Assembly (NCBI RefSeq): GCF_000971475.1
Contig: NZ_DF967528.1
Coordinates: 124,001-188,000 of the forward strand
From: Sulfuricella sp. T08
GTDB lineage: Bacteria; Pseudomonadota; Gammaproteobacteria; Burkholderiales; Sulfuricellaceae
Length of the DNA stretch: 64,000 bases
Reading direction: 5' to 3'
Part shown: piece by piece, positions 31,161 through 50,500 of the stretch
Numbering within the stretch: the first letter of the stretch is position 1
Layout of the letters: every line of letters begins with the position of its first letter
Notes under the pieces: model-generated
Database searches by the model: none
Seen by the model: the letters and a program-made list of their open reading frames with translations, nothing else
Told to the model about the DNA's origin: nothing
Program-made: the position numbers and the translations under genes

Positions 31161-31257
31161 TGGCGGAAGAGAGTGGGAGTCGAACCCACCAAGAACTGTC
31201 TGACAACCCTTGCCAGATTTGAAGTCTGGCCGCCCCACCGGGGAACGCTTCTCTTCC
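31161..31257 (-). tRNA. selC: Selenocysteine tRNA (anticodon TCA)
   Basis: The 97-nt minus-strand sequence starts GGAAGAG and ends CTCTTCC followed by GCCA, so the CCA is encoded. The acceptor stem is extended. The anticodon loop ACTTCAAAT carries TCA (plus-strand tga at 31220-31222), reading UGA. A long variable arm follows, and the T-arm reads GGGTTCGACTCCC. These are the hallmarks of tRNA-Sec and fit its place directly after selB. Confidence 0.95.
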
Positions 31258-34598: not shown

Positions 34599-34882
34599 GA
34601 AGGGGCACGGTTAGAAACGGAGTCGGGCTTAATTATGAATGCTGGGAAGAATCCCGGCAACAGATGCGTATTCACTTCTGCGTGACCACCATTTCTTATT
34701 CAAACTGACCAAGTGTTCTCACGCAATTGACCGCACATCAACAATTGGCACTGCCGGAAAGCGGCACTTCGACAATTGGCGCTAACGACCCGTTGCGGTC
34801 ATACCGTCCGCCGCTTATCAACCGTCCGGTTCACACGCCAAAGCGGTCGTTTCATTTCAGACAGCGTTGTTATATTAGCCTT

Positions 34883-35521
34883 CTACAGAATAACGGTTCC
34901 CGCTGGCAAGCCCAGCTTATAGTTCTGCAGCACGATGTTACGAGTTTCCACATCCATGATTGGATCGGTGATGACCGCTTCGCCTGTATTGGGACGCCGC
35001 ATGAAGTTGGCGCCATGTAGATCCAGATCCGCTGCAGGCCATCGTGATTCCAGAAAATCGGCAAGCAATAAAAGTGCCCGACTAATTTCGTCATCAGGAT
35101 GACGTGTGCTTACGTGCCGGAGCCTTCCGGATGGAATGTTCTTATGCTCCAAGGATTGCCGTAGCTGCCGCCCGATGGACAGGCAACGTTTGCGCGCCGT
35201 GGTGCCGGCCTCGAGCCTAATCAGTGATTCCATTTCGACAAGGAACAGTGGAACACCATAGTCGAGCGCGCCAACTATTCCGTGGAGTCCTCGAATGACA
35301 GGCAAGGCCGAACATCGCCATTCAGACTGATGTTCGGCCAATGCGTAGGCCGCACGATCAATGGTGAGCTTAAATACCGATGACTCATCGCCAAGAATGA
35401 CCGAGTAGACACCACGACCTATAACGGGCTGATGTTTGAGCAGAGGATGTTTCAGTGCCAGCCTGACACCACCATCGTTCCTTGAAAACAGCTTTCGATT
35501 ACCCCAAAAGAGAACCCCCAT
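34883..35521 (-). CDS. Small protein with kinase-like motifs
   Basis: A 212-aa protein of no named family. A glycine-rich loop (VIGRGVYSVIL, residues 33-43) is followed by a lysine in VFKLTID (Lys51). A catalytic-loop-like DLDLHGANFM (165-174) has Asp167, His169 and Asn172, and ITDPI follows about 12 residues later where DFG normally sits. This order matches a minimal protein-kinase or aminoglycoside-kinase fold, as seen in some phage-encoded proteins. It is the last gene of the McrBC-containing run, 92 bp after mcrC. No clear Shine-Dalgarno was found. Kinase activity is an inference from motifs only. Confidence 0.5.
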   Translation of the reverse strand: MGVLFWGNRKLFSRNDGGVRLALKHPLLKHQPVIGRGVYSVILGDESSVFKLTIDRAAYALAEHQSEWRCSALPVIRGLHGIVGALDYGVPLFLVEMESLIRLEAGTTARKRCLSIGRQLRQSLEHKNIPSGRLRHVSTRHPDDEISRALLLLADFLESRWPAADLDLHGANFMRRPNTGEAVITDPIMDVETRNIVLQNYKLGLPAGTVIL

Positions 35522-35613
35522 GGTCAGGCGTCAGTAGCGGGTAGTGGCATCGTTGTGCCAAAGAAAAAATCTCATGCAGTCGCGAAAACCGAGAGGTGCG
35601 TCCATCCCATTGG

Positions 35614-36918
35614 TCAAGGAGAAACAGCCTCAGTCGCCGAGTTTTCGGGCAGGAATAGTTGCCTCAACTGCGCAGGAACTGTCTTCAGGTTTTCCAAATT
35701 GATGGTCGCAACTCGAACCCGCCTGCTTTCCCGATTACTCACTTCGAGTAACCAAGGGTTCAGCGAGTAGTTTCCACGGATCCCGGCAACCGGTCCCAGC
35801 TCTTTATGGTGGGGATATAGCAAGACAACATCGGGGCAGCAGTAACAGTTGGCATACGCATACATTTGGTAAAGGTCTGACTGGGCCACACCATCCTTCG
35901 CTTCTTCCATGGAAAGCCGTTTCCACTTGGTATCCAGAATCCAGGCAGTCTTCGAATTCAGGCTGCCAACGACATCAGGCTTCATCGCAAAAGCCGGTCG
36001 CTTCAAGTTTTCGTCAAAAGCAAGATATTGCTGCGGGCCTTGCAGAGTTACTCGGTAGCCCAATGGTCCAAAAACACGGACAGCCATCCGACCGATATAT
36101 TCCTCAAACAGAACGTTCATATCAAAGAACAGCGAAAACCCTTGCATCCCGCCCCCACTTACATCAGGAGGTGTCATCTTAAGGAAAAGCTCTGCCAGTT
36201 TATAACAGGGCTTATAGCGGTCGCTCATGCGGTCGAATACCACGCGATTCCATGGAAGCGATGTCCTTGGACATTCAGATGCGCCCTCAAACACCAGCAG
36301 CAGCTCAGCCAACTGCCGCTGATTCTTCAATTCCCTAGATACCTTCAGTAGAAGGCGAATCGCCGCCTTCAGCACCTGGTTAAGCGGGTTGTCCTCCTGA
36401 AACTCGTCGAAGCGACAGAATAGGCGCTCGGGATTGGCCGCGTTGAGTCGCACCTGCTCTACCACACCCAATTTTCCACGGAGTACCGAGAGGTTCTCTT
36501 CGCGGCCTTCATAACGCCGAACCAGACCTCGATGCACCTGAGCAAAAAGTTTGTCACAGAACAGCCTGATAAGAATCTCGAGGACGCCGTGGTTCTGGGT
36601 AGCCACTCTGGCGACATCGCCTTCGCTGATATCGAGATCAAGCGCGATAGCCAGCATGGCGACAAGATTTCGCCTAACATTCGGAGCATTTCCGTCAACC
36701 TTCGGTAGCACCTCTACGGTATGAGGTCCGAGCTGGAATACACCTACGTACTGTTGTGCAGCAAGCGTGGTTCCATTGATGTACTTGAAGACCTCAAATC
36801 CATATGTTGCTTTGAGGTCAGTTAGGAGCGCAGCCTGACCACAGGTAACCGCCGGACGTGCGGCGTCAAACTCTCCAATATGGAGCTTCCCATACTCCCG
36901 AACGGAAATCAGAGACAT
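35614..36918 (-). CDS. mcrC: McrC-like restriction endonuclease subunit
   Basis: McrC family protein of 434 aa, the nuclease partner of an McrB GTPase. The N-terminal domain is typical (ISVREYGKLHIGEFD, GVFQLGPHTVEVLPKV). The C-terminal PD-(D/E)xK site is visible as KPDVV (Asp315) and LDTKWK (Asp329, Lys331). The gene starts 5 bp after mcrB, so the two products are expected to form the complex that cuts modified DNA. The symbol is by family; specificity is unknown. Confidence 0.85.
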   Translation of the reverse strand: MSLISVREYGKLHIGEFDAARPAVTCGQAALLTDLKATYGFEVFKYINGTTLAAQQYVGVFQLGPHTVEVLPKVDGNAPNVRRNLVAMLAIALDLDISEGDVARVATQNHGVLEILIRLFCDKLFAQVHRGLVRRYEGREENLSVLRGKLGVVEQVRLNAANPERLFCRFDEFQEDNPLNQVLKAAIRLLLKVSRELKNQRQLAELLLVFEGASECPRTSLPWNRVVFDRMSDRYKPCYKLAELFLKMTPPDVSGGGMQGFSLFFDMNVLFEEYIGRMAVRVFGPLGYRVTLQGPQQYLAFDENLKRPAFAMKPDVVGSLNSKTAWILDTKWKRLSMEEAKDGVAQSDLYQMYAYANCYCCPDVVLLYPHHKELGPVAGIRGNYSLNPWLLEVSNRESRRVRVATINLENLKTVPAQLRQLFLPENSATEAVSP

Positions 36919-36923
36919 GATAG

Positions 36924-39398
36924 TTACTGGTATATTTTGAGGTAGGCTTCCAGCGGGAATTCCCTATCCCTCACTTTGTATCGGGGCTTGGGGTCGTATC
37001 CATCTGCGGTCGACTCTAGCCCTTTGGGAACAATATTGTCTTCCTTGATGAAGGCTCCATCCTTGTCGTTCAGAGCCAAGCGCACTTTGGCCCAATCCTC
37101 ATAGAAGTATTCCTGCAAAAGTGGAATGATCTTGTGCCGAAAAACCCGTTGCAGTTTTTCCAGTGAATCAACGCCCATAAAATAGGCATGACCGATAGTG
37201 TGGTCGCGGTCATACAAATACTCGATTCGGTCATTCATGGCCTTCAACATAGCGCGGAGATCCACACCTTCGACCAGTCCCCCTGGCAGGGTCTCGTAGT
37301 CTGGCTGCAATTCCTCAAACTCAAAGCGTCTTCTCAGTGCGGTGTCCAACAAGGCAATTGAACGGTCAGCAGTATTCATGGTGCCTAGTACGTAAAGATT
37401 CGATGGCACAGTAAAGTCATCACCCGAATAGGCCAACTTCAGTGTTATAGCGTTTGGCATCCCTTCACGCTTGTCGGGTTCCAAAAGCGTGATGAGTTCA
37501 CCGAATACCTTTGAAATATTAGCGCGATTGATTTCGTCGATAATGAGTACGTGTGGCTGTGCCTCTTCAAATTCGCTGGCGGGAACCAAAAGTGCTTGCA
37601 ACCCTTCGTAGTTAACGTCGTGTAGCTGATGCAACGACCGCATGGTGAAATCCTTCGCATTCACCTCGGATGCTGGTCGCCCCGACTCGAAGACGGCAAG
37701 CCATTTGACAGGACGCGCTTGATGGAACGGCCCATCCTCGTCGAACTCATACTCACCGGTCACCTCCGCGATGCCACGGAAGGCTTTATTGCCATGCGAT
37801 ACAACTAGGATGTCACCCACCGCAAGCTCATTTTTGAAGCGGTCGACAAAAGCCACTTGAGATTTAAACTTATCGATATCGGGTGCTTCTTGCTTCAGCT
37901 TTTCGCCAATAGATTCAGCATTACCACAGTCGCTAAAATCGACATCCGCGCCCCATCCCATTAGCACACATCGGTTCTCTAGGCAGTACTTGAAAACCTT
38001 CACACCCTCGTCGTTCCAACTAGCCCCGAGGGACATCTTGAAGATTTTCCGTTCCTGAAGTGGCTTGCCAGATAGCCCAGGATCCACCAAGTTTGGAAGC
38101 CTAGCGGAATCACACGCCCGACGAAACGCGCCCGGCACCACACTGTATGAAACCTGACCTGAAGTTTGGAGCACAGGCCGAAGTCCTTCCACAAAGTCTT
38201 CATATCCGTAGGACTGATGAAAGGTAACGAATGAGATACGTCCTGCCTTACGGAACTCTTCATATTTTGCCCTGACCTCAGGGTCGCTTGCATCCGACGG
38301 CCAATCAGGGGCGCAGATTTGAACTGCACGGAGAGCCGTCGAATAGGTCTTACCAGTACCTGGCGGCCCATAAATAATCTGGTTTAGTGACACATTAGGC
38401 AGATGGGTTTCTGGATTATTTGTGTTCATCGGTTCGCTCTCAGAAAAATCAGTATCGTCATAGGCATCACACAACGCAATCAACGCCGCCTTTGTGGGTA
38501 CGCGAACCATGACGGCTGGCTTACCTTCTGCCAAATCGGGGGCATTAGAAGTTAAATTGCTGTTGCGTGACTTATTAGGTTCATATTCCTGGATTTTCCC
38601 CAATTGATCGCGAACCGTATCAAGCCATGCGCCCGGAGAGAGAAACAAAGTGGTTTCTTTGTTTTCACGCGCCAAGGCAATTTGTCGTCCAGTAGGCATG
38701 TTGAAACCCGCAATATACTGCGAGGGAGGCTTAATGGCGGCAAAACGGTCAGGCTGGCTATTAAAGTAGGTCAGCGCATCTTCCGGTGTCAATTTTTCCG
38801 CCAAAATGGAAGATACTTTATTCCACAATGCATCGGCATATCCGAACACCGATCCATCACCTCTCCCTTTCATAACGTGCCTGTAAAGGCCAGGATATTT
38901 CAACCCCTTTGCTGCTGTTCCAATAGCAGCCTGTAGATGCTCGAATTTATAGATGGGTAGTAGGCAAGGTGTCTGGCGATTTTGGTACAAGAACGCCAAC
39001 TTCCACTTGTAAACATCACCCAGATCTATTGAATCAATTGCTTCTATGTTTCCCTGGCGTGCAGCGTTGGCACATTCGACAATGAGCGCTCGAACCTTTT
39101 CGAAAGCTTCTTCATGGTTAGATCCGTATTTCGCATACCACGAATAAATATCATCATGCTTAAAGTGCTCACGCTGTTCCTTGATCGGACCTTTGCGACA
39201 ATAAATACCGAACTTAAAGGAACCCCCTCCGCGCATTGAACCAAGCATCTGAGTACCAAACTCCATCCAATAAGTAAGTGTCTCTTTGCTATCCGCCTGA
39301 GTATATTGTTTCAAGAACATATTTGGCAGATTCTCTAACGGCCAAATCTCCAAGAATTTATCCCACAACATTTCTCTATCGGCGATCGGTTCATTCAT
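36924..39398 (-). CDS. mcrB: McrB-type AAA+ GTPase with an inserted EVE-like domain
   Basis: An 824-aa AAA+ motor. Residues 1-330 form an N-terminal region I cannot assign, possibly the DNA- or target-recognition part. Walker A GPPGTGKT is at 344-351, Walker B VLIIDEINRAN at 617-627 and the McrB signature MNTADRSIALLDTALRRRF from 674. The gap between the Walker motifs is about 265 residues, against roughly 80 in plain McrB. The insert (about 440-600) reads like an EVE/PUA-like domain (KMSLGASWNDEGV, CVLMGWGADVDFSD, FKNELAVGDILVVSHGNKAFRGIAEVTGEY). Such domains read modified bases. It is followed within 5 bp by mcrC. Confidence 0.85.
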   Translation of the reverse strand: MNEPIADREMLWDKFLEIWPLENLPNMFLKQYTQADSKETLTYWMEFGTQMLGSMRGGGSFKFGIYCRKGPIKEQREHFKHDDIYSWYAKYGSNHEEAFEKVRALIVECANAARQGNIEAIDSIDLGDVYKWKLAFLYQNRQTPCLLPIYKFEHLQAAIGTAAKGLKYPGLYRHVMKGRGDGSVFGYADALWNKVSSILAEKLTPEDALTYFNSQPDRFAAIKPPSQYIAGFNMPTGRQIALARENKETTLFLSPGAWLDTVRDQLGKIQEYEPNKSRNSNLTSNAPDLAEGKPAVMVRVPTKAALIALCDAYDDTDFSESEPMNTNNPETHLPNVSLNQIIYGPPGTGKTYSTALRAVQICAPDWPSDASDPEVRAKYEEFRKAGRISFVTFHQSYGYEDFVEGLRPVLQTSGQVSYSVVPGAFRRACDSARLPNLVDPGLSGKPLQERKIFKMSLGASWNDEGVKVFKYCLENRCVLMGWGADVDFSDCGNAESIGEKLKQEAPDIDKFKSQVAFVDRFKNELAVGDILVVSHGNKAFRGIAEVTGEYEFDEDGPFHQARPVKWLAVFESGRPASEVNAKDFTMRSLHQLHDVNYEGLQALLVPASEFEEAQPHVLIIDEINRANISKVFGELITLLEPDKREGMPNAITLKLAYSGDDFTVPSNLYVLGTMNTADRSIALLDTALRRRFEFEELQPDYETLPGGLVEGVDLRAMLKAMNDRIEYLYDRDHTIGHAYFMGVDSLEKLQRVFRHKIIPLLQEYFYEDWAKVRLALNDKDGAFIKEDNIVPKGLESTADGYDPKPRYKVRDREFPLEAYLKIYQ

Positions 39399-39489
39399 TA
39401 GGTCAATTCCTTAATCTAAGGTAGTTCGAGATTACGCCATATTGTTCTGACTCTGCATAAAGCGGAACGTTAACTAACTCTTCAACCAT

Positions 39490-39774
39490 CTAGGTATTAG
39501 TCAATTCATCTTCGATGCAGCTTCGCTTTACTTCATCAATATCCCCGAACTTGCAGGTTACGATTCCCGGAATGTTATTCTTATTCCGGCGGCGGAATCG
39601 AGGGGCCGACAACTTTCTTAGCTCTGTCAGTGCTTCCCAGTAGTCACTGATATAGCGTTCACTTCCTTTCTCCCCGATCCGATAACCTTTTGTCAGTCTA
39701 ACGCTTGGCAAAAATAGGGTCTTGCTCCCATCTGGCTCGATGTAATAAGGCACTTTGATAAATTCGTCATTCAT
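39490..39774 (-). CDS. Small hypothetical protein in the defence operon
   Basis: A 94-aa soluble protein starting MNDEFIKVPYYIEPDGSKTLFLPS. The start at 39774 has a GGGGAAA ribosome-like site; an in-frame TTG at 39840 would add 22 residues. The C-terminus is basic then acidic (RKLSAPRFRRRNKNNIPGI, EVKRSCIEDEL). I recognise no family. It sits between the nuclease-helicase and McrB on the same strand, which suggests an accessory role such as a cofactor or regulator. Confidence 0.55.
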   Translation of the reverse strand: MNDEFIKVPYYIEPDGSKTLFLPSVRLTKGYRIGEKGSERYISDYWEALTELRKLSAPRFRRRNKNNIPGIVTCKFGDIDEVKRSCIEDELTNT

Positions 39775-39889
39775 TAATATTTCCCCAATAACTCCCCGAC
39801 CAAAGCCAGGGTAATCCACACACCACGAAAGGAACTCCAAGCCTACAAGGCGAACGTGGGAAGCAAAACCCCTAAGTAAATATTTCCTA

Positions 39890-42800
39890 TCAAGGAGCCA
39901 AATCGCTTACAGCCTCGGCCTGTCCCACCTCCTGCACCCAGCACAAGGTATTCACCAACGCCATTTCCTCTGGTGTTGAACATCGGATAGCCATCAGCGC
40001 CGGGTTGGCAATAAATAGCGCCAGACACTTGGCTCGGGAAATCGCCACGTTCAGCCGGTTCTTGCTGTACAGGAACTCAATGAATCGCGGCAGATATTCC
40101 CCACTGGAGGTGGTCATCGACATGATGACTACTTCTGCCTCCTGTCCCTGAAACTTGTCGACCGTTCCAACCCGTGTGCCTTCCGGCAAGGCCTTCTTCA
40201 ACAAATTGACCTGCATGTTGTACGGCGCCACGACAAGGATGTCGTTCAGGGTTAACGGGTGCTCCTGACCTTTTTTGTCCCGATAGCGCTGCTGCAACAG
40301 GCTATTTACCAGTTCCAAGACTAGATCGGCCTCCTCCTGGCTGCGCTGCGAGCAGGCATCATGCTCAATCGGGATATACCGGATGCCTGTAGGCATCAGG
40401 GCCGGATGGGCGTCACCACCGAGGAGCAAACTTTGCCTCACATTGTTGGGATCCGCCTCCAGGCGGCCATCGTAGACAGCATCGGAGATAAATTTGCAGA
40501 CATCGGGGTGCATTCTCCATGTCGTGCCGAGGAAGATGCCGCGCTCGGACGGAATGGTTGCCATGCCGTTGAGCAGGTATTCCAGCGACGATTTCCCTGA
40601 GCGCCCAGGATGAACACCTTGAATGGGTTGTCCCAACTGCATCTGGTCTCCCAGCAGCACGATGTTTTTGGCGCTGGTCCCCATGGCGGCGAGGTTAGCC
40701 AATGCCACCTGCCCGGCTTCATCCACAAAAATGTAATCCAGCTGCTGGTCCATTTCCTCGTCGGCAAACAGCCAGGCAGTGCCTGCGACCAGGCGATATT
40801 CATCATCGCTGCCAAAGACTCCCCAAATCGACTCATTGTCGAAAACGTCGTCAATGTAGTCACCATCAAAGAAAGAGTCACTTTTGCCCTTGGTCGATTT
40901 CTTTGCGCCACGGAAAACGTAGTCCTGCTCTTTAGCCACCTTCACGATGCCTTGGAGCAAGTTGTTGATGGCTTTATGGCTGTTGGACGACACCCCAACC
41001 CGGCGACCTTTCTTTAACAATGCGACAATGACGTGGGAGCCAGTATAGGTCTTGCCAGCCCCCGGCGGGCCCTGAACGAACAGATAACTGTTATCAAGAT
41101 TGGAGATCGCCTCGATAATTTGCGGTAGTCCCTCCTTATCTTCAGGCACTATCGGACTTCCGGCCTCCGTGCCACGGATTTTCGGCAAGGACTGAGACAG
41201 CACGGCTTCAATCGCTGGATATCTCCTATTTCCTTCAATGATGCTGTTTCCGAAACGGAAGACCGCCTCGGTCAGAGCCTTGGTGGAAACGGGCATTCCT
41301 GGCCCTAGGCAAACGGATTCCGGCAACGGTTCCTTGTTAGCTGTCCGTTTGAAGCTGACGCGGCGATTATCTTCATCGACCTTGAGTTCGCGTACGGGAT
41401 CGCCAGTCTGCGTAATGGCGGCACTATCCCCTGTCTTGAGTTTCGATGCCTGCTCGGGGAAAAGATAGGTATAAACGATGGAGCGCTTCTCCTGCCGAGG
41501 CGGATTGGCCGGGTCTGGCGTCAGGCCTGCCAGGCATTCTCCATCCTCCATGAGTTCATCTTCAGCCATTTCCATGCGCGAGAACATGGCCCACCACTCT
41601 GGTTTCGCGGACCGCCGATGGAAATCGAGCAACTGGTAGGCCAGTTCCTGCAAATGCTCGTGCGACCCCCATACCTTGCGATCCTCTGGCAACATATCAA
41701 TCAATCGCTCTCGATAGGGAATCAGCCGTTTTTCTTCTTCGGTGAGCTCGCCCACCTCCGGGTTAACAGCTTCCAGCCCTTCAACGGCGTCCTTCAACCA
41801 CGGCAGACCTGCAGGGCGTATGGATAGAAGCCACTGCTGCAATTCGTAGGTCGAGCGAACATCATCAAAGTTGTAGTCCTCAATGTCCTTTAGCAGTTGG
41901 GGGTCGCCGGTCTCCTTCCATCGTTCGTAATAGACGATGCTGGCGCCGGCATTCGTGACGTCACCTGTACGGCGCTCAAGATAAAAATGCTCGAGGTTCT
42001 TGATCGAGTAGCGGGGTTCGGAGACACGAATCCCCTCACGGACGACCTTGTAGAGGTCCACGAGCTTCTGTACCCGCAACAGGTTGTCCACCTCGGCCTC
42101 TCGGGTGCCATGCAAGGACATAAGTTTCTTGAGGGCCGTCTGCTCGTAATGGGCGTAATGATAGATATGGGCAGCAGGATGGAGCCGCAGCCAAGCCGTC
42201 ACAAAATCCATGAAGGCTTCGAAGGCGCGCTTTTCCTCGGCACGGTTATGGCCCCAGAATGCCTTGAACTCGGGCTTTCCGTCCTTGAAAAAGTAGAGGC
42301 CGAAAAGGTACTCGAGCCCACCTTCCTCCAGTGGATTGCCTTCCATGTCAAAAAACAGGTCACCCGCGTTCGGCCTGGGCAGGCGCGCAAATCCCCGAAC
42401 CGCCTCGATTTCCTGAGGCAGCAATTCCAATTGGTTCTCCCCGCTTTGACGTGCCAGTAGCTGCAATCGGGCTTGCCGATGCAGTTTCTCGAGCGTCTCC
42501 GCAGTCACTTTCGGAATCCGGGTCTCGACCGGCAGGGTGCCCAAGGCCTCCAGAGTCATCACACCGGCCACTTGCAGCTTCTTGATCTGCAGTCGGCTGA
42601 TATTCGCCACCTGGCAAAGGTGGTCGTCCTTGAGCCGCTTGTCCTCGCACAGGCCGCTCCATTTGCACAGGTCGCATTTTTCGCAGGGGACGGGATAGGT
42701 TTCCAGAGCTTTGCCCGTAACCCGGTCGAGAAAGCGCTGGGTCACGAGATTCAGATAGCGGGCATAATCAGCATAGCGGTAAGCAACTTCAGTCCGGTCG

Positions 42801-43312
42801 CCGAGGACGACATGCATCTGAATCGGCGGCAGGCCCTGAGCTTTTCCCACCAGCGCCGAATAAAACCCCAGCTGGATAATGAACTTGGCTATCGTGCTTC
42901 GTGCCAGCTTGGTATCCAGAACCTCGTAGCTCCAGTTGCCAAGTTCCGATGGTCGGGGCACTTTGCGCAGGAAATCGGCGTGACCAATCAGGCAGCCATC
43001 CCGCAAGGTCGCCTGAAAAATTATTTCATAACCATCGTGCATGGCTTGCAGGGTGGCGGCGACCTTCTGCTCCAAGGTGCCACCCGTCGCGGAAATATCG
43101 ATGAGCGATGGATGCCGAGCCTTGAGCAGCTCAAGGAAGTCCGCCTCATGGGCATATCCCTTGGCCTGAATCAGCTTGGCTTGATCACTATTCTCGGTTT
43201 TCGGGAGCGGTGTTTCGAGGTCAATCAGGTCGAGTGTGGTGAGGTGCTCACACTCCAGGTAATTGACAAGATCTGACGCCGAATAAAGAACTTCCTTGCC
43301 ACGTTTTTGCAT
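39890..43312 (-). CDS. TM0106-type RecB-like nuclease / RNase H-like / SF1 helicase fusion
   Basis: An 1140-aa multidomain protein. The N-terminal RecB/Cas4-like nuclease has GHADFL (110-115) and EVLDTKLA (130-137), with a cysteine set (Cys21; Cys210, 213, 216, 222) suited to an iron-sulfur cluster. The middle is an RNase H-like (DEDD-type) domain with DLFFDMEG (318-325) and NFDDVRSTYEL (481-491). The C-terminal superfamily 1 Dna2/Upf1-like helicase has Walker A GPPGAGKT (748-755), DEAGQ (864-868), WRMHP (932-936), DKFQGQEAEVV and NVAISRAK (1088-1095). It is annotated in related genomes as a TM0106 family RecB-like nuclease (from memory). It opens the accessory run that includes McrBC and probably processes foreign DNA. 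Confidence 0.85.
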   Translation of the reverse strand: MQKRGKEVLYSASDLVNYLECEHLTTLDLIDLETPLPKTENSDQAKLIQAKGYAHEADFLELLKARHPSLIDISATGGTLEQKVAATLQAMHDGYEIIFQATLRDGCLIGHADFLRKVPRPSELGNWSYEVLDTKLARSTIAKFIIQLGFYSALVGKAQGLPPIQMHVVLGDRTEVAYRYADYARYLNLVTQRFLDRVTGKALETYPVPCEKCDLCKWSGLCEDKRLKDDHLCQVANISRLQIKKLQVAGVMTLEALGTLPVETRIPKVTAETLEKLHRQARLQLLARQSGENQLELLPQEIEAVRGFARLPRPNAGDLFFDMEGNPLEEGGLEYLFGLYFFKDGKPEFKAFWGHNRAEEKRAFEAFMDFVTAWLRLHPAAHIYHYAHYEQTALKKLMSLHGTREAEVDNLLRVQKLVDLYKVVREGIRVSEPRYSIKNLEHFYLERRTGDVTNAGASIVYYERWKETGDPQLLKDIEDYNFDDVRSTYELQQWLLSIRPAGLPWLKDAVEGLEAVNPEVGELTEEEKRLIPYRERLIDMLPEDRKVWGSHEHLQELAYQLLDFHRRSAKPEWWAMFSRMEMAEDELMEDGECLAGLTPDPANPPRQEKRSIVYTYLFPEQASKLKTGDSAAITQTGDPVRELKVDEDNRRVSFKRTANKEPLPESVCLGPGMPVSTKALTEAVFRFGNSIIEGNRRYPAIEAVLSQSLPKIRGTEAGSPIVPEDKEGLPQIIEAISNLDNSYLFVQGPPGAGKTYTGSHVIVALLKKGRRVGVSSNSHKAINNLLQGIVKVAKEQDYVFRGAKKSTKGKSDSFFDGDYIDDVFDNESIWGVFGSDDEYRLVAGTAWLFADEEMDQQLDYIFVDEAGQVALANLAAMGTSAKNIVLLGDQMQLGQPIQGVHPGRSGKSSLEYLLNGMATIPSERGIFLGTTWRMHPDVCKFISDAVYDGRLEADPNNVRQSLLLGGDAHPALMPTGIRYIPIEHDACSQRSQEEADLVLELVNSLLQQRYRDKKGQEHPLTLNDILVVAPYNMQVNLLKKALPEGTRVGTVDKFQGQEAEVVIMSMTTSSGEYLPRFIEFLYSKNRLNVAISRAKCLALFIANPALMAIRCSTPEEMALVNTLCWVQEVGQAEAVSDLAP

Positions 43313-43531
43313 GGTCGCTCCCTGATGTTGTTTTTGTCATGCTGCATCGAACGGATCGCTCAGCAACTGAGCATCTGCCATTATCCTGACCTAATGGCTC
43401 ACCAGATGAGCTACTTGGATTTTTTTCAGAGCGGGGTGCGTTTAAACAAACGACATGTCTAAAGCAGACTCTATCACTTTCCGAGGGTTGGCCCACTGAA
43501 ATACATGAAAGTCATGTGGCTGCTTTTGGCT

Positions 43532-44760
43532 CTTGGATTCAACCGGTCGATGCAACAGATTGGCTGAATCGTTCAGCAGGCGTTTCGTAGTTTAGTGTTT
43601 TCCTTGGCCGCTCATTCAATTTCCTAGCCACGGCATTTAGTTGTGCTTGTGAGTAGTTCGAGATGTCGGTTCCCTTGGGGAAATACTGCCTCAACAGCCC
43701 ATTCGTATTTTCATTAGACCCACGCTGCCAAGGACTATGAGGATCGCAGAAGTAGACCCGGATGTCAGTCGCCAACGTGAAACTCTTGTGGCCAGCCATC
43801 TCTGTACCTCGATCCCATGTCAGCGACTTGTAGAGCTCTTGCGGCAACGTGTGGGCGTTCTTGATCAGCGCTTTGATAACCGTCTCGGTTTCTTTGCTGG
43901 GAATCTTCACCAACATTACGTAGCGTATTTGACGTTCGACGAGAGTCGCAATCTGGCTGCCGGGAGTTCCACACAGCAGGTCACCTTCCCAGTGGCCCGG
44001 TACGGCCCGATCTTCCGCCATGGCTGGGCGTTCGCTGATCGAGACCGTGTCCTTTATCCTGCCATGAGTACCTGTTTTCTGGGTGTGATGGCGCGAACGG
44101 CGCATAACTCGTGTTCGCCGTAAATGCTGCAACAACTCTTTCTTCAAGGCGCCACGGGCTTGAATGAACAGGCTGCGATAGATAGTCTCGTGTGACACTT
44201 GAAAAGCCTCGTCGTATGGGTAAGCACGCTTCAGCCACCCAGCAATCTGTTCTGGCGACCACAGCAGTTGGAGCTTATCGGCCACGATGTGCGCCAACGT
44301 ACGGTTCTCGGCCAACCTACAGGTCTTGGGACGATGTCCTCGATCCCAAGCAGTCTGGTCGGCCTGACTCGCCCGGTAGCATTCTCGGCCGCCATTGCGC
44401 ATTATCTCACGGCTAATCGTAGATGGTGCGCGCCCAAGTCGCGTCGCTACTGATCGTACCGACAGACCCGTAGCCATAGAACGCGATATTTCCTCTCGCT
44501 CAGCTAACGTCAGCGCCAATCTAGAACGGTGGCGTTGCGCCGGCTCTATACCACCTGTCTCTGCCAGTATCCGTTGTATCGATGAGTGGTTGCGATCAAA
44601 TAGTTCGGCAATGCGCTGGAGGGACTCACCTTTCCGCCACTGCTCCCACATGATCGCTTTCTGACTTTCCGTGTAATAAATCCGAGGTCTTTGCTTCATC
44701 TGCAACACTCCTTCTGCTTACGCAGTTTCTAGTGTGTTGCATCGACCGGTTGAATCCAAG
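43532..44760 (-). mobile_element. Complete IS30-family insertion sequence
   Basis: The 1229-bp element is bounded by perfect 26-bp inverted repeats (43532-43557 and 44735-44760; inner core TCAACCGGTCGATGCAACA). GCT lies directly outside both ends (43529-43531 and 44761-44763), a 3-bp target duplication as expected for IS30. It encodes one intact transposase, so it may still be active. It sits in non-coding DNA between the defence run and fdhE. Confidence 0.93.
43539..44708 (-). CDS. IS30-family transposase
   Basis: Intact DDE transposase of 389 aa. N-terminal helix-turn-helix segments are seen (SLQRIAELFDRNHSSIQRILAETGG and SVRSVATRLGRAPSTISREIMRNGG, the latter diagnostic for IS30). The catalytic core has GHWEGDLLCG (first Asp), LTWDRGTEMAGH (second) and SPWQRGSNENTNGLLRQYFPKG (Glu). 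Its 3' end runs into the left terminal repeat. Confidence 0.95.
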   Translation of the reverse strand: MLQMKQRPRIYYTESQKAIMWEQWRKGESLQRIAELFDRNHSSIQRILAETGGIEPAQRHRSRLALTLAEREEISRSMATGLSVRSVATRLGRAPSTISREIMRNGGRECYRASQADQTAWDRGHRPKTCRLAENRTLAHIVADKLQLLWSPEQIAGWLKRAYPYDEAFQVSHETIYRSLFIQARGALKKELLQHLRRTRVMRRSRHHTQKTGTHGRIKDTVSISERPAMAEDRAVPGHWEGDLLCGTPGSQIATLVERQIRYVMLVKIPSKETETVIKALIKNAHTLPQELYKSLTWDRGTEMAGHKSFTLATDIRVYFCDPHSPWQRGSNENTNGLLRQYFPKGTDISNYSQAQLNAVARKLNERPRKTLNYETPAERFSQSVASTG

Positions 44761-44979
44761 GCTGACAACCGGCCAGTCGGCAGCCTGATTTCGTGGCGCC
44801 TCGACTGTCGGCTGATGGCACACAGCGGCTATACGCATATTCTAACTGCTTGCCGAAAAGCGGTCGCTCGCGACTTGAGGTTTGAATGGTAACTGACCTT
44901 GAGAATTGCTGGTCAGTCCTGATGAGAACAGCGGGCAAAGGTCACGATATTTCGCAACAGAACCTGAATATCAGGGCGG

Positions 44980-45079
44980 CACTGAACAAGTATGGTTTTG
45001 TCGTTCCCGCGAAAGCGGGAACCCACTCAATTCAATAAACTGGATTCCCGCTTTCGCGGGAACGACGACTTATTCAGTG
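44980..45079. repeat. Nested palindromic repeat element
   Basis: The arms 45000-45021 and 45045-45066 are exact inverted copies (core TTCCCGCGAAAGCGGGAA), each itself containing a CCCGC-GAAA-GCGGG hairpin. Outer arms CACTGAACAAG (44980-44990) and CTTATTCAGTG (45069-45079) pair with one mismatch. A REP/BIME-like intergenic element, located just after the 3' end of fdhE, where it could stabilise or terminate the formate dehydrogenase transcript. Confidence 0.8.
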
Positions 45080-45090
45080 TTCCCTTAGAT

Positions 45091-47526: not shown

Positions 47527-50500
47527 CTATACCTTCTCAACGTCCACGAGGAACGATTTGAATTCAGGCGTCTGAGTGTTAGCGTCGCCCACGAAAGGGG
47601 TCAAGGTGTTGGTGATGTACCCGTTCTTGGCCAACCCCATAAAGCCCCAATGGATCGGAATACCCACGGTATGCACCTTCTTGCCTGACACGGTGAGCGT
47701 CTTCAGGCGCTTGGTGACGACGGCCACGGCAATGATGAATCCGCGCTTGGATTTCACCCGTACGTGGTTACCGGCCTTGATGCCTTTCTCCTTGGCCAGA
47801 TCTTCGCCGATTTCCACGAACTGTTCCGGCTGCATGATGGCATTCAGCTTCACATGCTTGGTCCAGAAGTGGAAGTGCTCGGTGAGCCGATAGGTGGTCG
47901 CCACATACGGGAACTTGTCCGGCTTGCCGAACGTATCCCAATCGCCTTTGAACACCCGCGCCGCCGGATTGGCCCGCGCCTTGGGATTGTCCGGATGCAG
48001 CGGATTGCTGGCCAGCGGCGATTCCATCGGTTCATAGTGTTCCGGGAAAGGGCCTTCCGCCATCTTGTCGATGGCGAAGAAGCGCGCCACGCCTTCCGGG
48101 TTCATGATGAACGGATTGATGCCTTCTTCAGGTGCGGAATCGGCCTTGATATCCGGAATGTCCGAGCCGGTCCACTTGCCTGCTACAGCGTCCCAACCGA
48201 TCAGTTTGCGTTTCGCATCGTAGGGTTTGCCGGTGAGATCGCAGGATGCACGGTTATACAGAATGCGCCGGTTCGCCGGCCAGGCAAATGCCCAGTTGAG
48301 CGTTTGCCCGATGCCGAACGGATCGGAGTTGTCCCGCCGCGCCATCAGGTTGCCCTTCTCCGACCAACTGCCCGCGAAGATCCAGCAACCGCACGAGGTG
48401 GAACCGTCATCGCGCAATTCCGCGAAACCGTTCAGCTGCTCGCCGGCTTTTACCAGCACTTTGGTCGGGTCCTTGGGGTCGGTCACTTCCTTCAAGGCCT
48501 TGCCGGAAAACTCCTTCGCCAGTTCCTCAGGGGCAGGAGAATGCGGCTGGCGATGCTTCCAGGTCAGGTTCAGGATAGGATCGGGGAAAGCCCCGCCTTC
48601 TTTTTTGTACATCTCCTTCAGCTTGAGGAAAATGCCCGCCATGATTTCAGGATCGGCTTTCGCCTCGCCCGGCGCTTCGGTGGCCTTCCAGTGCCATTGC
48701 AGCACGCGGCTGGAACTGACCAGAGAGCCGTCTTCTTCCGCGAAGCAGGTGGAAGGCAGGCGGAACACTTCGGTTTGAATCTTGGTCGGATCCACGTCGT
48801 TGTACTCGCCGTGGTTCTGCCAGAACTCTGAGGTTTCGGTCGCTAGCGGATCGATCACGACGAGGTACTTGAGTTTCGCCAGAGAGCCGGAGATCTTCAC
48901 CTTGCACGGCGCCGAAGCGAGCGGGTTGAAGCCCTGGCAGAAGTAGCCGTTGACCTGGCCCTGGCTCATGTTCTCGAACACCTGCAGGATGTCGTAGTCC
49001 TTGTCGAGTTTGGGCAGCCAATCGTAGCACCAGTTGTTGTCATTGGTCGCGGCGTCGCCGAACCAGGCTTTCATATTGCTGACGAAGAATTTGTTGTAGT
49101 TCTGCCAGTAACTCATCTGGCCTGGCCGCAGCGGTTTGAAAGCGCGCTTCTCGATATAGCCCGTGTAATCCTGCTCGGCCTCGCGGGGCAGCGTCATGTA
49201 ACCCGGCAACAGATTGGACAGCAGGCCCAAATCGGTCAGCCCCTGGATGTTGGAGTGGCCTCTGAGGGCATTCATGCCGCCACCCGCCACGCCGATGTTG
49301 CCCAGCAACAACTGCACCATGGCGCCGGTGCGGATCATCTGTGATCCCTGCGAGTGCTGCGTCCAGCCCAGGGCGTACATGATGGTCATGGTTTTGTCGG
49401 GCTTGGAGGTCTCCGCAATCATCTCGCAGACTTTGAGAAAGGCATCCTTGGGCGTGCCGCAGATGTTGGACACCATTTCCGGCGTGTAGCGGGAGTAGTG
49501 CGCCTTCATCAACTGGTACACGCAGCGCGGATCCTGCAGCGTCGGGTCGGTGACCACGAAGCCATCCTTGCCGATCTGGTAGCCCCAGGTGGATTTGTCG
49601 TACTTGCGCTTCTCCGGGTCATAGCCGGAGTAAATGCCGTTCTCGAATTTGAACTCGTCCTTCACCAGGAAACTGAAGTCGGTGTAATTCTTCACATACT
49701 CATGGTGAACCTTGTCGTTGCTGAGCAGGTAATTGATCAGACCACCCAGAAAGGCGATGTCGGATCCGGCACGTATCGGTGCGTAAAAATCCGATACCGC
49801 GGCGGAGCGCGTGTAGCGGGGATCCACTACAATGAGCCTGGCTTTGCGGTTGGCCTTGGCCTCGGTCACCCATTTGAAACCGCAGGGGTGGGCCTCGGCG
49901 GCATTGCCGCCCATGATGAGAATAAGATCGGCATTCTTGATGTCGACCCAATGATTGGTCATGGCGCCGCGGCCGAACGTAGGGGCAAGACTTGCCACCG
50001 TAGGTCCGTGTCAGACGCGTGCTTGATTATCGAATGCGAGCATCCCCAGACTGCGCACCACTTTGTGGGTGAGATAGCCTGATTCGTTACTGGAAGCGGA
50101 AGCGGCCAGGAAACCCGTGGTCACCCAGCGGTTCACGGTGGCGCCGTCCTTGTTCTTGGCGATGAAATTCTTGTCCCGGTCTTCCTTCATCAACTTGCCG
50201 ATGCGGGTGTAGGCCTCGTCCCAGGAAATGCGTGTCCATTCCTTGCTGCCAGGGGCACGGTACTCAGGATACTTGAGGCGGTTAGGGCTGCGCACGAAAT
50301 CCAGCAGGCCGGCGCCTTTGGGGCAGAGCGTGCCGCGATTTACCGGGTGATCCGGGTCACCTTCGATATGGACAACTTTTGCATGGACGTTCTTGGCTTT
50401 ATCGCCCAGGCTGTAGATCAGGATGCCGCAGCCCACCGAGCAGTACGGGCAGGTGTTGCGGGTTTCGGTAGTGCGCGCCAGCTTGAAACTACGCACCTCC

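Follow-up and report, generated by a model that had tools for sequence, protein, structure and literature searches.

In a 64,000-nt stretch of Sulfuricella sp. T08 (assembly GCF_000971475.1, contig NZ_DF967528.1, positions 124,001-188,000; hereafter the window), a gene for a nuclease-helicase, designated NH, stands with mcrB and mcrC, and these three genes are the conserved unit of the locus. We propose, with a probability of roughly 0.6, that their products act jointly, McrBC cutting modified DNA and NH degrading the ends. The recurrence of the NH-McrBC pairing across many proteobacteria suggests that one part cuts and that the other destroys the pieces. The proposal draws on the gene content and intact motifs of the locus, on the recurrence and compactness of NH-McrB-McrC, on the way NH-linked members group in the McrC tree and on a swap of the nuclease downstream of NH (McrBC or HNH_2).

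McrB has three candidate recognition modules, namely a PD-T4-1-like N-terminal domain, a domain that we call d2 and a YTH/EVE-like insert. McrB and McrC would form a GTP-driven motor, with McrC cleaving DNA that bears the recognized modification; NH would load on the broken ends, unwind them with its superfamily 1 (SF1) motor and degrade the strands with a putative iron-sulfur (Fe-S) nuclease of the Cas4/Dna2 type and a DEDD exonuclease, leaving phage or plasmid DNA beyond repair. Joint action, DNA as the substrate, the order and polarity of the steps and a defence phenotype all belong to this model, which was built from sequence.

The genes lie in a run of five open reading frames (ORFs) on the minus strand at 34883-43312 of the window, with intergenic gaps of 115, 91, 5 and 92 bp from NH to a 212-aa kinase-like gene, as the first-pass annotation of this DNA had described. 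That annotation grouped all five genes together. NH, McrB and McrC recur together in beta- and alphaproteobacteria, and a five-gene unit was rejected because the kinase-like gene and a 94-aa ORF do not accompany the core. Compared with Rhodoferax homologues, the ratios of nonsynonymous to synonymous substitution (dN/dS) indicate purifying selection on NH (0.085), McrC (0.05, where dS is nearly saturated) and the kinase-like gene (0.14).

Linkage of NH and McrBC across genomes

A scan of 84,980 genomes for NH yielded nine relatives. NH, McrB and McrC stand together at four of these loci (L014, L017, L018 and L020), the kinase-like gene being present also in L018, and at another four (L013, L015, L016 and L021) an HNH_2 nuclease lies 40-154 bp downstream of NH. 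The window and L013 have NH genes that are 83% identical at the DNA level, followed by different nucleases; in the comparison with L018, the 3' half of mcrB is where DNA identity sets in again. The McrB-type and HNH-type partners have recognition-like domains in common, which favors our proposal. The HNH protein of L013 has d2 in common with the McrBs (moderate support), and a small domain is common to the HNH protein of L016 and a 108-aa ORF preceding McrB in L018, a suggestive link with moderate support (hhalign P 5e-5); the same link was not significant when tested for L017.

The order and strand of the window genes are kept in L014, L017, L018, L020, L100, L103 and L104, and L112 has the order McrB-McrC-NH. 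By hidden Markov model search, NH adjoins McrBC at 11 of 48 NH loci, to which one locus with an annotated DUF2357 protein can be added. We also made an even draw of 399 genomes across the phylum Pseudomonadota, 16 of which carry NH, in 18 copies including that of the window; one of the 17 others is cut by a contig end. McrBC was found within 7 kb of NH for six of the 16 scorable non-window copies (L100, L101, L103, L104, L108 and L112), and a control search found McrC in 15 of 200 Pseudomonadota genomes. The probability of six or more such cases among 18 is 2e-17 for random genes and 1.7e-4 with a 5% defence-island background, a rate that was assumed and not measured.

Plasmids served as an independent check. 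Among 72,556 plasmid records, NH is present on 58 and McrC on 167, and the eight plasmid McrCs closest to that of the window are all on NH plasmids, five of them adjacent to NH. On the Aminobacter and Rhizobium plasmids (three read with annotation), NH-McrB-McrC is arranged with 0-1 bp between annotated genes; a Rhizobium gallicum plasmid in the same set is unannotated.

Other copies of NH were found near DISARM DrmD, Hma, BREX PglZ/BrxL, Tmt or methyltransferase genes, or near nothing that we recognized. Genome G777 holds two NH paralogues (L097 and L098); a predicted Hma helicase (PDLC00659) adjoins one of them, and DNA methyltransferases adjoin the other. At L034 and L039, on Phenylobacterium and Rhizobium plasmids, NH adjoins multiubiquitin/ThiF (bacterial ubiquitin-like) gene sets.

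On a tree of McrC proteins, NH linkage (adjacency or, in three Sphingobium, presence on the same plasmid) required three changes, against a mean of 12 when the labels were shuffled, and none of 500 shuffles was as low. The NH-linked McrCs form an alphaproteobacterial clade (13 of 14 members, the exception being a Klebsiella plasmid, L121), a betaproteobacterial clade (4 of 4) and L017; some branches of this tree are very long and its deep joins are unsure. McrBC of the L121 type is conserved on Enterobacteriaceae plasmids, with more than 40 Klebsiella-type plasmid records.

The nuclease-helicase

NH (39890-43312, 1140 aa) combines a RecB/Cas4-like PD-(D/E)XK nuclease, a DEDD exonuclease and an SF1 helicase of the UPF1/Dna2 type, with matches to TIGR03491 (E 5e-94), PF13482 and PF13086/PF13087. 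The TIGR03491 score of 315.8 bits, against a cut-off of 97.5, places NH in the TM0106 (COG2251) family, and together with the RNase_H_2 and SF1 helicase matches it bears out the earlier description of a TM0106-type RecB/RNase H-like/SF1 helicase. The DEDD-type, RNase H-like exonuclease domain occupies residues 319-495 (41828-42358; PF13482 E 9e-31). The helicase core, residues ~735-1110 (39983-41110), matches PF13604, PF13086 and PF13087, and the nearest sequences in the Protein Data Bank are those of SMUBP-2, UPF1 and DNA2. A search for viral homologues of NH gave two partial matches only.

We compared the active sites of 48 NH proteins, with identities as low as about 37%. D133 and K135 of the PD-(D/E)XK nuclease, D322, E324, E390, Y480 and D484 of the DEDD exonuclease and most of the helicase residues checked are invariant. 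D113 is kept in 47 of the 48 and D864 in 46 (E otherwise), while Y1031 and K1053 vary slightly. The nuclease, exonuclease and helicase motifs of the window NH are all intact. Four cysteines (C21, C213, C216 and C222) have the spacing found in the Cas4, AddB and Dna2 Fe-S nucleases; all four are present in 38 of the 48 proteins and all four are missing in the other 10, which make up one clade. Since the four cysteines are kept or lost jointly, the pattern supports a predicted Fe-S cluster bound by NH. The cysteine-less clade (L108, L109, L041-L043 and L092-L096) keeps the nuclease residues and offers a natural test of the role of the cluster.

McrB and McrC

Both subunits named in the first-pass annotation were confirmed. 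McrB (36924-39398, 824 aa) has AAA matches and resembles the McrB structures 6ut3 (E 7e-58) and 6hz4 (E 1e-31). Its Walker A and Walker B motifs are intact and its NxxD motif is MNTADRS at residues 674-680, as in McrB-like GTPases. McrC (35614-36918, 434 aa) is the nuclease subunit, with the DUF2357/McrBC domain PF10117 (E 6e-76) and a PD...DTK catalytic motif (ILDTK) of the PD-(D/E)XK type.

The N-terminal domain of McrB (residues 13-141; 38976-39362) is related to part of PD-T4-1 (PADLOC PDLC04021, E 8e-18), is found also in L020 and might be a specificity module. McrB itself is not a PD-T4-1 protein; the best stretch spans only positions 34-155 of the 383 in the profile. Domain d2 (residues ~198-335; 38394-38807) is common to all five close McrBs and occurs also in an HNH nuclease downstream of NH, as indicated by a profile match to the N-terminus of the L013 protein (17.6 bits; hhalign P 1.7e-5).

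As previously noted, McrB also carries an extra inserted domain, at residues ~434-612 (37563-38099) between Walker A (344) and Walker B (~618). The insert is present in the McrB of L020 and missing from those of L014, L017 and L018. An AlphaFold model of the insert, built from two sequences, had a predicted local distance difference test (pLDDT) score of 69, and the top 12 Foldseek matches to the model were all YTH domains (best E 9.7e-4, probability 0.99, template-modelling score about 0.35-0.40). With modest confidence, the modelled insert folds like YTH/EVE domains, an identity at the level of the superfamily. The insert had been called EVE, a label that holds at the superfamily level, because YTH and EVE domains are members of a single superfamily that binds modified bases and that McrB proteins often carry as a fusion or an insertion (PMC7641849, PMC11090510); the Pfam EVE profile itself gave no match to the insert. 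A search for viral homologues of the insert found none.

Alternative explanations

Several points weigh against joint action. McrBC is dispensable for NH, since NH is also found on its own or next to HNH_2, DISARM, BREX, Hma or Tmt genes in loci that have no McrBC; most of the McrBCs in other places have no adjacent NH. L121 lies within the NH-linked McrC clade, with no NH in the stretch read and an IS3 element upstream. Many of the NH-linked loci were found via NH, which biases the McrC tree, and on the NH tree the McrBC label is scattered (10 changes, against a shuffled mean of 10.8). Part of the linkage could be due to NH and McrBC sharing defence islands. Because the linkage follows the phylogeny of McrC and not that of NH, these McrBC lineages keep NH and NH is promiscuous in its partners.

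We tentatively consider a broader role, in which NH might be a ‘finisher’ that degrades ends for DNA-cleaving defence systems in general. The cassette of sensor and endonuclease (McrBC, HNH_2, DISARM- or BREX-type) would be exchangeable, and two McrBC lineages would have come to depend on NH. The main rival holds that NH works autonomously in defence or repair, that it shares defence islands with McrBC and that the two act separately. The scatter of McrBC on the NH tree, the many loci with NH alone or with other systems, and the WYL regulators, known companions in defence islands, that often adjoin NH genes are all consistent with such autonomy. It is rather unlikely, as NH, McrB and McrC abut on one strand as operons in several genera and NH-linked McrCs group strongly in their tree, which is more than simple co-residence would give.

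Facultative genes

The remaining two genes of the run are facultative cargo. The 94-aa ORF (39490-39774), 116 aa long if read from a TTG instead of the ATG start, corresponds to a small C-terminal domain encoded on its own; a BLASTP search of three sequences matched the C-termini of three plasmid proteins (E 8e-12 to 2e-9), one of which bears a DnaQ-like exonuclease domain. The small kinase-like protein (34883-35521, 212 aa) has G-loop, VFK, DLHxxN and DP motifs. It matches phrog_3809 (E 3e-12), for which no function is named, and, over a short stretch, the phage kinase family phrog_15752 (E 1e-4). Despite the PHROG match, no relative was found by tblastn in phages or plasmids or in IMG/VR. 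The gene occurs in three of 300 genomes of the order, the window included, and G008 has an isolated homologue that is divergent at its N-terminus.

The first-pass annotation had suggested an expanded type IV restriction or abortive-infection system; a predicted type IV module, expanded by a Cas4/Dna2-type nuclease-helicase, is supported, and nothing points to abortive infection. A five-gene abortive-infection system, in which the kinase-like and 94-aa proteins would signal or control the response, gains something from the catalytic-like motifs and the dN/dS of the kinase-like gene, and from its homologue (67-68% identical) directly after McrC in L018. It is nevertheless improbable. The kinase-like gene follows McrC only in the window and L018; it is absent from that position in L014, L020 and the other McrBC-linked loci scored, the contig of L017 ending just past McrC. 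The 94-aa gene has no homologue at any other NH locus, and the AlphaFold model of the 212-aa protein (pLDDT 44) was too poor to confirm a kinase fold.

Eukaryotic YTH domains bind N6-methyladenosine in RNA. An RNA-targeting system of the CoCoNuT type (McrBC with a UPF1-like helicase and a kinase) would accord with the YTH-like insert and with types II and III, which likewise unite McrBC, an SF1 UPF1-like helicase, nucleases and a kinase (PMC11090510), and is very improbable, given that McrB has MNTADR rather than the branch-defining NxD, that McrC retains its PD-(D/E)XK motif and that NH has RecB-like and DEDD exonuclease domains, not HEPN or RelE-like ones.

The genomic island

The five genes lie in an acquired island of about 10.4 kb (34599-45090) between fdhE and selA. 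These two genes are 10.5 kb apart in the window, and only 64 bp apart in the same-genus genome G010 (L059) and 139 bp apart in G001 (L058); the short gaps, together with the low guanine-plus-cytosine (GC) content, identify the block as acquired. The GC content is 45-53% across 35-40 kb, compared to roughly 57-68% in the adjacent core genes, in agreement with the earlier impression that the mcrB region is richer in A+T. The flanks were also as first described. An IS30 element (43517-44775, minus strand; NF033563 E 5e-88) adjoins NH, with a transposase ORF at 43539-44708 and 41-bp inverted repeats at 43517-43557 and 44735-44775; the flanks also hold selA, selB and tRNA-Sec. A search for a direct repeat bracketing the entire island found none, and promoter and terminator scans gave no more sites than in shuffled sequence.

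The island genes and the flanking fdh and sel genes are all on the same strand. The locus encodes a selenocysteine formate dehydrogenase, and its fdhE and selA otherwise lie close together; the island separates them, in the orientation of the locus, and may alter the expression of selA and selB. An Rfam scan found only tRNA-Sec and a selenocysteine insertion sequence (SECIS) element (RF01989), at 31161-31257 and 49958-50016, both outside the island; they form a selenocysteine insertion set beside the formate dehydrogenase locus. A near-perfect 33-bp inverted repeat with a 1-nt spacer (45000-45066), between IS30 and fdhE, resembles dispersed palindromic repeats, and a related copy is present in L058.

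Comparison with known systems

Restriction by McrBC is a textbook case, and the usual view is that host nucleases, RecBCD among them, deal with the DNA that it has cut. If our proposal is correct, an McrBC lineage with a Dna2-like helicase-nuclease of its own would be a self-contained device that both cuts and destroys DNA, and phage inhibitors of RecBCD might not affect it; such a lineage would also suggest a first function for the widespread, uncharacterized TM0106/COG2251 family. The idea can be tested directly with swaps that occur naturally, namely the same NH with McrBC or HNH, and the Klebsiella member without NH. The pairing of NH with McrBC is not described in the openly searchable literature: we found no openly accessible paper linking TM0106/COG2251 to McrBC or to defence, and neither TM0106 nor RecB occurs in the text of the McrBC census, which reports associations of McrBC with type I restriction-modification, DISARM-like systems and methyltransferases (PMC11090510).

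Mokosh (MkoA/MkoC) has a similar SF1 helicase (PADLOC E 5e-47), but NH is not a member, as the best-scoring stretches are confined to the helicase core (residues 840-1098 or 922-1114) and stop short of the nuclease half, and the partner genes differ. The UvrD-Cas4 fusions of defence loci also join a Cas4-like nuclease to an SF1 helicase and are linked to restriction genes; unlike NH, they have a UvrD-type helicase, a pfam12705 nuclease and linkage to Mod/Res rather than McrBC (PMC5704561). With the Dna2, AddB and Cas4 Fe-S nucleases NH shares the C..CxxCx5C cysteines and the PD-(D/E)XK core, and with Dna2 the UPF1-like SF1 helicase, but NH has an additional DEDD exonuclease between nuclease and helicase, and one NH clade is without all four cysteines. 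NH is a full-length member of the COG2251/TM0106 family, whose architecture of a DUF83-like PD-(D/E)XK nuclease, an RNase H-like exonuclease and a tandem AAA helicase was previously noted (PMC3985635).

CoCoNuT types II and III, like the window, encode a UPF1-like SF1 helicase with McrBC and have extra nucleases, but the helicase of NH is fused to other nucleases. Those types are also marked by RNase effectors and by long coiled coils fused to McrB; the N-terminus of the window McrB resembles part of PD-T4-1 instead. Membership was rejected because the McrB motif is NxxD, whereas NxD defines the CoCoNuT branch (PMC11090510). A close match is type IV McrBC, as in E. coli K-12 and in Thermococcus gammatolerans with its YTH-like McrB, which has the same NxxD McrB GTPase with swappable specificity domains (putative ones in the window), the same McrC with DUF2357 and PD-(D/E)XK, and directly adjacent mcrB and mcrC. 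The window differs by the combination of the PD-T4-1-like domain, d2 and a YTH/EVE-like insert placed within the AAA domain, and by the presence of the NH gene in the operon.

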